64,000 nucleotides of DNA from NCBI GenBank assembly GCA_021794655.1, contig JAJYQJ010000068.1:1-64000 (forward strand), written 5' to 3'. The translations under genes were made by a program, and so were the position numbers. The stretch comes from Actinomycetes bacterium (GTDB lineage: Bacteria; Actinomycetota; Acidimicrobiia; Acidimicrobiales; RAAP-2). Of this stretch, positions 28,159-31,534 are shown in pieces; positions within the stretch are counted from its first letter, which is position 1, and the number at the start of each line of letters is the position of its first letter. The notes beneath the pieces are model-generated. The model made no database searches. It worked only from the letters and a program-made list of their open reading frames with translations, and had not been told where the DNA came from.

Positions 28159-29267
28159 CTAACGCCACGCAACAGCGACCGGATCAGAGCCCGGTGGAAG
28201 AGAGATTATCCCCAGCACGGTCCCGTCTGGAAGCTGCTCCTCGACAACTCCACGACCCTTCGTCGTGAACTTTCCCCCAGTCGGACCCGGTCCGCCAGGG
28301 ATCGCAGGCTGGTACTTCAAGATAACCGTTACTGCGCTGGCGCCTGGAACCGCTACCACCGAGATCCTCCACCCGTTCCCCCCGGCTTGGTCGTGAGCAC
28401 CGATACTGGACTTGTTCCAACCGCGATAGGCGCGTTCGGTGTCGAAGTCAAGACGTTGATCGGCGTCACTGTCCCCGCGCTCTTGTTGACCACAAACGCA
28501 GTCTGGCCGTCGGGACTGAACGCGACGTCTACTGGATCCGCACCTGCTTGGATCGGTGGCAGCGCTACGTCACGCTGGAGATCAACCGGTACAACGGTCC
28601 CAGCTGCAGAGTTAACTACATATGCGAGGGAGTTGCTCGGTGAGATAGCAATCGCTCCTGGCGCCGGTCCAACGTTAATATCTTTAACCACGCGATTGTG
28701 AAGAAGAGAGATGACGGCTATGTAGTCTGCGCCGGAGACCGATACGTACGCATACGCTGAGTCCGGTGACACCGCGATTGAAGTCGGGTTCGGTCCAACC
28801 TTGATCGCCGGCTGCGGGCGATGCGTCGCGACCTCAATTGGCGTTATCGAACCAGCACTCGTATTAACCACGTAGAAGTAGTTACCAAGCGGTGCGTACG
28901 CTATCGCTGTCGGGGTCCCTCTGACTCGAATCGGTGGAACTATCAACGCCTGTGCCTGGACGTTGATGGCAATCACCGTACCTTGACTTGGGCAAGTGAC
29001 GTCGACCTCAGTTCCACCGGGCGAGGTCGCGAAGCTCGACGGGTTCGCGCAGACTGCGTGGATTGTCTTCACTTGGAGAGGCAAGACCGATGCTTGAACA
29101 ACCTTCGCAGGCGCGCGCTCGAGGACGAGCGCGCCGATAAAGGGTATCGTCTGCCCCGGCCGCAACGTCTCCGTCCTGTTAACACATGAAACGAGGAGAA
29201 GGGGGGAGAGCATCAAGAGCACCAAGGCGCCGCGTCGCACGGACACGGCGCGTATCAGATGTTTCAT
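28159..29267 (-). pseudogene. YVTN/YncE-like beta-propeller lipoprotein with a frameshift
   Basis: ATG 29267 opens a lipoprotein with basic n-region, hydrophobic core and lipobox LLVSC, followed by repeated blade motifs (AIAYAPLGNYFYVVNTSAGS, SIAVSPDSAYAYVSVSGAD, AIAISPSNSLAYVVNSAAGT and DVAFSPDGQTAFVVNKSAGT). The frame ends at 28353, just after a run of six G (plus-strand C6 at 28378-28383). In the next frame clearly related sequence continues without a break: ISVVAVPGASAVTVILKYQP and so on to a stop at 28159 ending PPGSDPVAVAWR. A seventh G would join them into one protein of about 368 residues. The cause could be sequencing error, decay or switching. The start is now coupled to the iscB stop (TGATG). 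Confidence 0.75.
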
Positions 29268-30751
29268 CAGAAGTGGGTGTGGGACGAGTTACCCCCGGCT
29301 TTAGCCGTGGGCTCGTAACGGAGGGATAGTCCCACTCGGGTCCTTGGCCCGACCTCCTTGTCCTGTTCGTATCCCCAGCCATCTGCGCGTTGTAAGAGCG
29401 TGCAGTGACGGTAACTGATTCCTTGCACGGTGCCTCCATTCGTCTTGATGTTGAAACTTCCAGAACTACGCACAGCCACCCGCCCTACGTGGGTTCCGCT
29501 GTGTTTACCTCTGGGAACGACTGCTCGTACATCGTCACCAGTTGCAAACCCGTGGTGAACCTTCATACTGGGCAAGCAGAGCCTTGGAAACCCATAGGCA
29601 TCAGGCGTTGTGCGGGAATAAGAGCCCCGTTCGGTCGCCTTTGAAGAAAGAAGCGTTCCTGGATAGGAGGAAACGCCGCTCATATCTCCCACGCACAGTG
29701 CGTCAAGTGTGTGGGACTTCGCGACAGAGAAACGGGTTCGGTTCCACTTCGTACGCCCACCTGATCCAGTAGAGACCGGTAGCCCTGTCGCTACCAGCTC
29801 ACGCCAGAGTGCCCACCTAGTTGAGTTGACCGCAGCAGCGTCTCTGAGCGGGACCTTCGCCTGGGCTGGGACCTTCTTTAGTCTTTCAGGCTCCCCGGCT
29901 AGGAACTCTTCGACAGTGTGGGCGCCTTTTCTTTGGTTGCAAGAGACACACGCCGGAGTGAGGTTAAAGACCCGGTCGCTACCCCCACGGGCCTTGGACT
30001 CGATGTGGTCGACGTTGAGCGGTACCGAGGCAGGTCCGACCCCACTCGCTCCACAGTAGGCACACTGCCTGTCCCACTTCTCCAGCAGGTACTCACGTAC
30101 CTCGTAACCCGCCAAGGCGCCTCGCTGGTACGTAACGCCTGTGATCTCAGGGTTCTCCATCTTTTGCATGTCGAAGCGCACGAGCTCTTGATGGATAGCC
30201 ACCACCGGCGCCCACCTGCGTAGCCGTGATACCACCGACATCGTGGTATCCACCCTGTGTTGCAGGCTCGGTGCGAGGCGGGTGTGGCGATTGCCGTTGT
30301 CCACGAAATGCCGATCACTGGCGCACGGGCGACAGTAGCGAGACCCACGGCGGGCGTTCTTCTTGCAGTTCGCACACGACTCGGGAGACCGGTTTGCCCA
30401 GCGGGGTTTGCGGTAGCGCAGGTTTGTCGTCCTGCGCCTGCGGCGGTAGGCCGAGCGCCGGCCCATCAACTTGTGGATGAGCCGGCCACGGTGTCCTATC
30501 CCAATGGAGATAAGTCCGTGACGCACTCGGTCGTCGTCTACTCGAAATACCGACACTCCCGTGAACTTAGACCCCGGGTCGATACCAACGTCTACTCCGG
30601 GTACTTCTGATTGCTCTACAACTTTGTCCACCAATCGGATCACGAACGGAGAGAGGTGGTGGACCCTGGCCCGTCCGGCGTGCAGGAGTTTACGGGCACG
30701 CGCCCGATGACACGGCATGAGCGGGTGACCGTGGTTATCAACCACGAACAC
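29267..30751 (-). CDS. iscB: IscB RNA-guided HNH/RuvC endonuclease
   Basis: OMEGA nuclease, ancestral relative of Cas9. From GTG 30751 (494 residues): N-terminal PLMP domain (HPLMP at 9-13), RuvC-I GIDPGSKFTG with D58, arginine-rich bridge helix about 98-118, RuvC-II with E189 in HQELVRFD, HNH about 230-275 (CAYCG, then PLNVDHIESKARGGSD with D248/H249, then CVSCNQRKG), RuvC-III SHTLDALCVG with H347/D350, then the C-terminal target-adjacent-motif region. All catalytic residues are present. A CANC...CRPC insertion at 126-143 is unusual. The frame stays open to 31039, and ATG 31018 has a strong GGAGG site, but that part covers the omega-RNA. The last codons read through the element-end hairpin. 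Confidence 0.9.
   Translation of the reverse strand: MFVVDNHGHPLMPCHRARARKLLHAGRARVHHLSPFVIRLVDKVVEQSEVPGVDVGIDPGSKFTGVSVFRVDDDRVRHGLISIGIGHRGRLIHKLMGRRSAYRRRRRTTNLRYRKPRWANRSPESCANCKKNARRGSRYCRPCASDRHFVDNGNRHTRLAPSLQHRVDTTMSVVSRLRRWAPVVAIHQELVRFDMQKMENPEITGVTYQRGALAGYEVREYLLEKWDRQCAYCGASGVGPASVPLNVDHIESKARGGSDRVFNLTPACVSCNQRKGAHTVEEFLAGEPERLKKVPAQAKVPLRDAAAVNSTRWALWRELVATGLPVSTGSGGRTKWNRTRFSVAKSHTLDALCVGDMSGVSSYPGTLLSSKATERGSYSRTTPDAYGFPRLCLPSMKVHHGFATGDDVRAVVPRGKHSGTHVGRVAVRSSGSFNIKTNGGTVQGISYRHCTLLQRADGWGYEQDKEVGPRTRVGLSLRYEPTAKAGGNSSHTHF
29292..29311 (-). repeat. element-end hairpin, copy B (3' end of IscB element)
   Basis: Read on the minus strand: CCCACGGCTAAAGCCGGGGG, with GGCTAAAGCC as the stem core. 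It lies inside the last codons of iscB (PTAKAGGN) and matches copy C upstream of iscB at 18 of 20 positions. Confidence 0.75.
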
Positions 30752-30754
30752 CCG

Positions 30755-31112
30755 TGACGCGGTAATGCTGGGTGGGGCCGTTTGGCCCCGATCTTCGTCT
30801 TCACCGGAGTGCTCCGGATTCGACGAGTGACGCTGTGGGGGAAGGTGATCCTCTACAGTCTCCCCTCGACGATGTTGTACACCAGTTGCCGGGTTACCCC
30901 GGTGTTCGCGCCCCGTTTCGTCCACACCCTTTAGGTTGTCTGCTGACACGAATTTAAGAGCAGCAGACTGAGGAAGCATCTGCTGGTGGGTCTTCTCGCT
31001 TGTGTACAACGTAGACATCTTGTTCACCTCCTTATTCAATGCCTTGGTCTGGTCAACCTGGGCTTGTGGGAGATTCCCTCAAGCCACCGGCTTTAGCCGT
31101 GGGTGGTTGACC
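30755..31112 (-). ncRNA. omega-RNA (HEARO-type) of IscB
   Basis: IscB guide RNAs lie directly 5' of iscB, with the guide at the RNA 5' end. Here this stretch has strong hairpins: GGGTGG/CCACCC (31101-31116), the end hairpin (31084-31103), CCGGA-GTGC-TCCGG (30804-30817) and GGGGCC-GTTT-GGCCCC (30774-30789), given as plus strand. The last sits 23 bases before the likely iscB start. The protein frame across this stretch is compositionally odd (HLPPQRHSSNPEHSGEDEDR), as expected for translated structured RNA. The guide should come from about 31108-31130. Ends are estimates. Confidence 0.65.
31084..31103 (-). repeat. element-end hairpin, copy C (5' end of IscB element)
   Basis: Read on the minus strand: CCCACGGCTAAAGCCGGTGG. 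It directly abuts the palindrome at 31101-31116. Same orientation as copy B, so the two are long direct repeats bracketing the element. Confidence 0.75.
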
Positions 31113-31116
31113 ACCC
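31101..31116. repeat. 16-base hairpin at the 5' edge of the IscB element
   Basis: GGGTGG-TTGA-CCACCC: 6-bp stem, four-base loop. It may be part of the omega-RNA 5' region or the cis-acting left-end structure. Confidence 0.6.
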
Positions 31117-31162
31117 TCCCAGCTCGAGTCGTAGCGTTTGAATCAGTCATCAACTCTTCACT

Positions 31163-31450
31163 CTAGTCGCCTGTTGCGCCTGGACTAATTGATCGCACCG
31201 ACAGTCTACCGTTTGGCCCGGCGAGTACTCGCTCAGCTGCGTGGGACCGATCCAGCGAAAAGGTACTCACGCTGAGTACGTAGCGACGATCGACGGAGTC
31301 GACCGTGACCGACACACCAGCTTGGAGACAGCCAAGCTCCACCTCGGCCGCGTCGGTTGCCGCCGTGCCCTCGAGGGCGCCGCGCGCGACGAGGGTGGCA
31401 CGGAAGGCGTCGACCGCGGTGTCAATCGCGCTACTCACGACCCAACTCAT
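31163..31450 (-). CDS. small unknown protein
   Basis: 95 residues from ATG 31450, preceded by GAGCGGG; a TTG at 31474 in frame is an alternative. The sequence alternates helical (VVSSAIDTAVDAFRATLVAR) and beta-like (VSVTVDSVDRRYVLSVSTFS) stretches and has no signal peptide. I recognise no family. Removing the IscB element would place it about 45 bases upstream of the frameshifted lipoprotein and on the same strand, so the two may once have formed an operon. Downstream of it now lies the IscB element. Confidence 0.45.
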   Translation of the reverse strand: MSWVVSSAIDTAVDAFRATLVARGALEGTAATDAAEVELGCLQAGVSVTVDSVDRRYVLSVSTFSLDRSHAAERVLAGPNGRLSVRSISPGATGD

Positions 31451-31534
31451 CCCGCTCAGGCGAAAGCTTGTCAAGAGTTGTCAAGATCCGGGGCGGGCGG
31501 GCCGACTTTGCGAATGGCGTGGGTCAGCTCCCAG

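Follow-up and report, generated by a model that had tools for sequence, protein, structure and literature searches.

The window analyzed here, a 64,000-nucleotide (nt) stretch of an Actinomycetes bacterium genome (GCA_021794655.1, contig JAJYQJ010000068.1), carries an IscB/HEARO element directly in front of a lipoprotein gene. Sequence comparisons place the insertion to the base, reveal the fit of the element's ends to the adjoining reading frames, and document both an enrichment of related elements at gene starts and element-free alleles at other loci. On this evidence, it is quite probable that the element inserted 5' of an ATGA tetranucleotide that forms the lipoprotein start and that its family is enriched at start codons, with ends fitting the reading frames on either side.

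The IscB element of the window and its junctions

The window copy is an intact element of 1844 nt on the minus strand (29268 to 31111). Its first base, G31111 of GTCAACCACCC, and its last base, G29268, are given by an alignment of four copies in the source genome and by position 1 of the Rfam model RF02033, which coincides exactly with the left end. On the left, the element directly follows CTGGGAGGGTG, which ends at 31112 (minus strand). On the right, it adjoins ATGAAACATCTG, the start of a gene (28353 to 29267, minus strand) for a 304-amino-acid lipoprotein containing a signal peptide with lipobox and a beta-propeller. The lipoprotein ATG occupies 29267 to 29265 and belongs to the target-adjacent motif ATGA (29267 to 29264, minus strand), which also completes the iscB stop codon (TG/A, where the slash marks the junction). 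The iscB stop (TGA, 29269 to 29267) and the ATG share base 29267, and the resulting TGATG (29269 to 29265) has the stop/start overlap geometry (ATGA or TGATG) of a termination-reinitiation gene pair.

Close to the left junction lies the Shine-Dalgarno-like sequence GGGAGGG (31114 to 31120, minus strand). Based on the sequence and the rejoined site, this presumably served the lipoprotein gene as its ribosome-binding site before the insertion. It falls within the presumed 16-nt guide TCGAGCTGGGAGGGTG (31112 to 31127, minus strand), whose position follows from IscB biology and whose length is assumed. A previous sequence-only reading of the window had proposed an IscB element separating GGGAGGG from the lipoprotein ATG, the shared base in TGATG, and ATGA as the motif; the first two proposals are confirmed, and the third is supported by the right ends of the four copies. 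The same reading let the element run from 29268 to 31130 and the guide from 31108 to 31130. Its right end stands, as does the location of the guide in the left flank. The true left end is 31111, with 31112 to 31130 representing flank (guide), and the proposed guide interval takes in 4 scaffold bases. The earlier reading is largely right, being accurate to a few bases in its description and partly supported in its interpretation.

The four genomic copies encode proteins that are 75 to 100% identical to the window protein. All end in YG/ATGA followed by unrelated sequence, which fixes the right end to the base, and three begin with GTCA[AG]CCACC after unrelated flanks, which fixes the left end (/GTCA). 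In the remaining copy, C147 (L015, about 1-120), the left end has diverged and lacks GTCA, and the HEARO score is below the cut-off. This copy is probably immobile, but it retains an intact iscB frame and right junction. Each of the four adjoins the ATGA start of a downstream open reading frame (ORF), encoding the lipoprotein, a DprA homologue (378 amino acids), a CysH-type phosphoadenylyl-sulfate reductase (247 amino acids), and a 327-amino-acid product that lacks an NCBIfam match and appears nuclease-like. The left flanks of three copies contain GGGAGG, GGAG or GAGG near the junction. No target duplication was found at the right end of the four copies. Related elements have seamless empty sites, although one related element shows an extra ATGA.

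The omega-RNA (HEARO) scaffold spans 30854 to 31111 (minus strand; RF02033, 90.6 bits, gathering score of 83). The longest open iscB frame extends from a TTG over 29267 to 31039 on the same strand, with a likely start at ATG 31018 behind AAGGAGGTGAACAAG and a conserved IscB core at 29270 to 30760. Its product matches NCBIfam NF040563 (guided_IscB; 392 bits, cut-off of 175), the Pfam domains RRXRR (192.7 bits) and HNH (40.2 bits), and the PDB IscB chains TbaIscB (E=1.6e-48) and OgeuIscB (E=4e-21). It carries the PLMP motif as HGHPLMPCHRARA, close to the start of the conserved core. A Cas9d (type II-D) identity was rejected, as the score of 31.7 bits is below the cut-off of 375. The perfect AAGGAGGTGAACAAG-ATG is located inside the omega-RNA (31016 to 31040, minus strand) and in frame with iscB, so that in the window clade part of the guide-RNA scaffold also belongs to the iscB frame; copy C147 has lost this ATG by deletion. 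The window element contains no tnpA. Two Y1_Tnp genes occur elsewhere in the genome (C36:1086-1448 and C66:1085-1447), and these Y1 (TnpA-type) transposases could act on the elements in trans.

Insertion sites, element-free alleles and reading frames

To place these junctions in a wider context, elements were drawn from IMG/VR contigs, GTDB genomes and plasmids, with left ends set at RF02033 position 1, or at the GTCA motif where no model match was run. The surveyed elements are partly related by descent. A gene-start-like codon adjoins 26 of the 55 elements (47%), compared to 6.8% of 2790 background RTGA sites in the same flanks (P=9e-16). This count is conservative, since the verified comM-dprA and hutI-hutH cases described below were scored as in-gene by the simple rule. 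In addition, a Shine-Dalgarno motif lies 3 to 12 nt before the junction in 17 of 35 RTGA elements, compared to 9.8% of background sites.

Element-free relatives were recovered at several other loci. The gene upstream of the dprA copy is comM, and the element is placed exactly at the comM-dprA overlap base; most of the approximately 20 element-free relatives examined have an exact 4-nt RTGA stop/start overlap between these genes. A Micromonospora element separates hutI from hutH. In an element-free relative that is 87% identical over the rejoined 240 nt, hutI stops and hutH starts within an ATGA located at the predicted base; another relative (85% identical) also aligns across this joint, with ATGT in that position. 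On a Pseudomonas veronii plasmid, traU is followed by the element and then by a gene with a nuclease domain, and at least 13 other Pseudomonas plasmids (IncP-type; pCAR1, pDK1 and others) span the rejoined traU-nuclease site without the element, showing the same ATGA start codon. For the pPNAP01 element, no relative was found that would give an empty site, and a search for relatives of the gene downstream of L153 returned only the gene itself.

The reading frames fit at both ends of the elements. When the flanks of 44 RTGA sites are rejoined, two ORFs of at least 60 codons each share a 4-nt ATGA stop/start overlap in 10, against a background of 2.5% (P=2e-7). In each of these 10 cases, the left end supplies the upstream gene with a new stop codon after 4 to 37 nt, the distance being exactly 19 nt in seven. 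Across 41 distinct left ends, some of them of common descent, such an early stop is present in the overlap phase in 29; for the two remaining phases, the counts are 16 and 4. At the right end, iscB is open to the junction in 17 elements, 16 of which share the single phase in which RTGA gives a stop (TG/A or NN/R-TGA); the TGA of the target motif itself terminates iscB in 15 of the 17. In the sixteenth same-phase element, L115, GTGG takes the place of RTGA, and the iscB frame continues 343 nt into the flank. On a Deinococcus plasmid (L209, 2252-3874), an IscB element lies between parA and parB, and rejoining its flanks gives a 4-nt ATGA overlap.

These features suggest the following scheme. An IscB/HEARO element would insert before ATGA and leave the Shine-Dalgarno sequence of the gene behind as its presumed guide. 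An upstream gene that formerly ended at the TGA of the motif would be stopped anew 4 to 37 nt inside the left end, and an iscB frame open to the right end would nearly always meet the motif in the TGA-stop phase, creating a TGATG or ATGA overlap. The downstream gene would retain its own ATG in a termination-reinitiation arrangement and is probably translated by coupling to iscB. Of 14 gene pairs tested with such overlaps, 13 showed translational coupling (PMC6728339). For the window, the TGATG overlap makes it plausible that lipoprotein expression now depends on iscB translation, as the sequence-only reading had proposed.

Homing can be predicted along similar lines. The left-flank guide, together with ATGA, would direct the predicted IscB cutting of element-free alleles and thereby favor retention of the element. 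Once the element is in place, the sequence next to the guide match reads GTCA and not ATGA, which would protect the filled allele from cutting. A search of the source genome for the guide followed by ATGA returned only the element's own flank (with GTCA replacing ATGA) and one site with 3 mismatches, giving no evidence of multi-targeting.

Competing explanations for the start-codon fit

Several observations weigh against insertion at a start codon as a complete account. About half of the surveyed elements are not at start codons, and the rejoined window site would leave a spacing of only 2 nt between GGGAGGG and the ATG, which is short. An element-free window allele would join GGGAGGGTG to ATGAAACATCTG, with GGGAGGGTGATGAAACATCTG as the predicted joint. 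The sequence-only reading had forecast such an empty site; element-free relatives at other loci do join at the predicted base, but searches of 172 family genomes (3 mismatches allowed) and of viral contigs (exact pattern) yielded no empty allele for the window. The window genus is represented by a single genome in these data, and related genomes offer only distant homologues of the lipoprotein, the best being 27 to 48% identical. Right ends in the survey were chosen by eye at the first RTG that follows the right-end hairpin. This choice skews the count of motifs (ATGA in 30 of the first 43 elements, GTGA in 5, ATGG in 6, others in 2), whereas the tests on ORFs, Shine-Dalgarno sequences and overlaps are free of this bias. 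The left flank of the plasmid element L205 (2205-2212 and 3888) contains one ATGA more than the 13 or more empty plasmids do, through either a 4-nt duplication or carry-over. The p1160-VIM element has a seamless empty site, yet its ATGA is internal, at codon 19 of a plasmid gene, and is a proven mid-gene insertion. Finally, overlap-based coupling cannot be universal, since iscB ends 22 to 91 nt short of the right end in roughly two thirds of the sampled elements.

The ends of HEARO/IscB elements may have evolved near-transparency to translation at ATGA gene junctions, with the left end stopping the upstream gene, the motif stopping iscB, and the downstream ATG staying in a coupled overlap. The element would then be able to live inside operons, with its guide reading the ribosome-binding site of its target. 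We give this proposal an even chance. More generally, the placement of the family at start codons and stop/start overlaps would account for the puzzling preference of HEARO elements for ATGA/GTGA and for the tolerance of a 1.6- to 1.8-kb element in compact operons and phage genomes. It would also tie expression of the nuclease to host translation and imply that guides of the IscB/HEARO class often read ribosome-binding sites.

Survivorship alone, in which elements insert at any RTGA and only the harmless insertions remain, would require no adaptation of the ends, and we consider it a serious contender, somewhat short of an even chance. Where genes are tightly packed, most same-strand RTGA sites at which an insertion does no damage are start codons, and insertions within genes are depleted (33% of elements versus 80% of background RTGA sites), as purging predicts. 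The mid-gene insertion in p1160-VIM fits this view, and the stop-carrying loop sequence of the left end, CTRAAG, also occurs in the right-end hairpin and may be structural. Purging of harmful insertions explains part of the start-site excess. However, start sites exceed other intergenic RTGA sites (26:11 for elements versus 190:363 for the background; odds ratio of 4.5, P=2e-5). Both the shared stop phase of the open iscB frames and the phase bias of the left-end stops likewise argue against survivorship as the only process.

The elements could also carry a portable, structured ribosome-binding site, in which a conserved AAAGGAG, 55 to 95 nt before the junction, is brought near the start codon by the right-end stem-loops, so that element signals, and not iscB coupling, initiate the downstream gene. 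A Shine-Dalgarno-like AAGGA, AGGAG or GGAGG is present at -102 to -48 in 36 of 48 elements, versus 12 expected from simple shuffles, and is followed by right-end stem-loops. In several elements, the motif comes just after the iscB stop and is thus not simply coding. In the window copy, ACAAGGAGG precedes the hairpins, and the stem-loop region (29280 to 29350, minus strand) consists of GTGGGAC...GTCCCAC with an inner CCCACGGCTAAAGCCGGGGG. In the window clade, however, the motif doubles as iscB coding sequence. Because the right end of the window element folds no better than shuffled sequences (z of -0.84), the structured site remains a rival idea, and one that we regard as rather unlikely.

That iscB is an ordinary operon gene upstream of the lipoprotein gene, without recent insertion, is highly improbable: TGATG overlaps are common between genes (PMC6728339), but the alignment of four copies with common ends and unrelated flanks disfavors it, as do the Shine-Dalgarno-like left flank and the element-free relatives at comM-dprA and hutI-hutH.

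Relation to known systems and further observations

With known IscB/HEARO (ISC) elements, the window element shares the RRXRR/RuvC and HNH domains, the PLMP motif, a HEARO RNA located 5' of the ORF and overlapping it, the left-flank guide, and an NTGA-type motif at the right end. It differs in the precise fit to a start codon or ATGA overlap and in the target-supplied iscB stop, which are undescribed in the openly licensed papers searched. In that literature, neither a start-codon or operon fit of IscB/HEARO nor the combination of HEARO, IscB and ATGA was found; the claim of novelty is provisional, as the search covered openly licensed papers only. TnpB elements of the IS200-IS605 type resemble the window element in their single-strand type of transposition, seamless insertion beside a fixed motif and RNA-guided retention, and differ in having the guide at the other end and the motif at the left end. 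We know of no start-codon fit for these elements.

The OMEGA nickase IsrB has the same RNA-guide layout and requires an NTGA, NTG or NTGG target-adjacent motif, consistent with the junctions seen here, but lacks the HNH domain (PMC9581776). IStrons, which combine a group I intron with an insertion sequence, are likewise mobile elements made tolerable to the host gene they enter, there by RNA splicing and here by a fit to reading frames and translation signals (PMC4227781). The overlap geometry is identical to that of ATGA/TGATG termination-reinitiation pairs (PMC6728339), except that here it is made by insertion of a mobile element.

Upstream of the window element, a small ORF (31163 to 31474, minus strand) encodes 103 amino acids from a TTG or 95 from an ATG and has no Pfam match. 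Among the surveyed sequences, one viral contig (L086, 1971-8540) carries three HEARO/iscB elements in succession. The left flanks of L088 (221), L089 (1203) and L157 (4757) resemble the ends of another HEARO element, suggesting that elements either entered one motif more than once or left remnants there.
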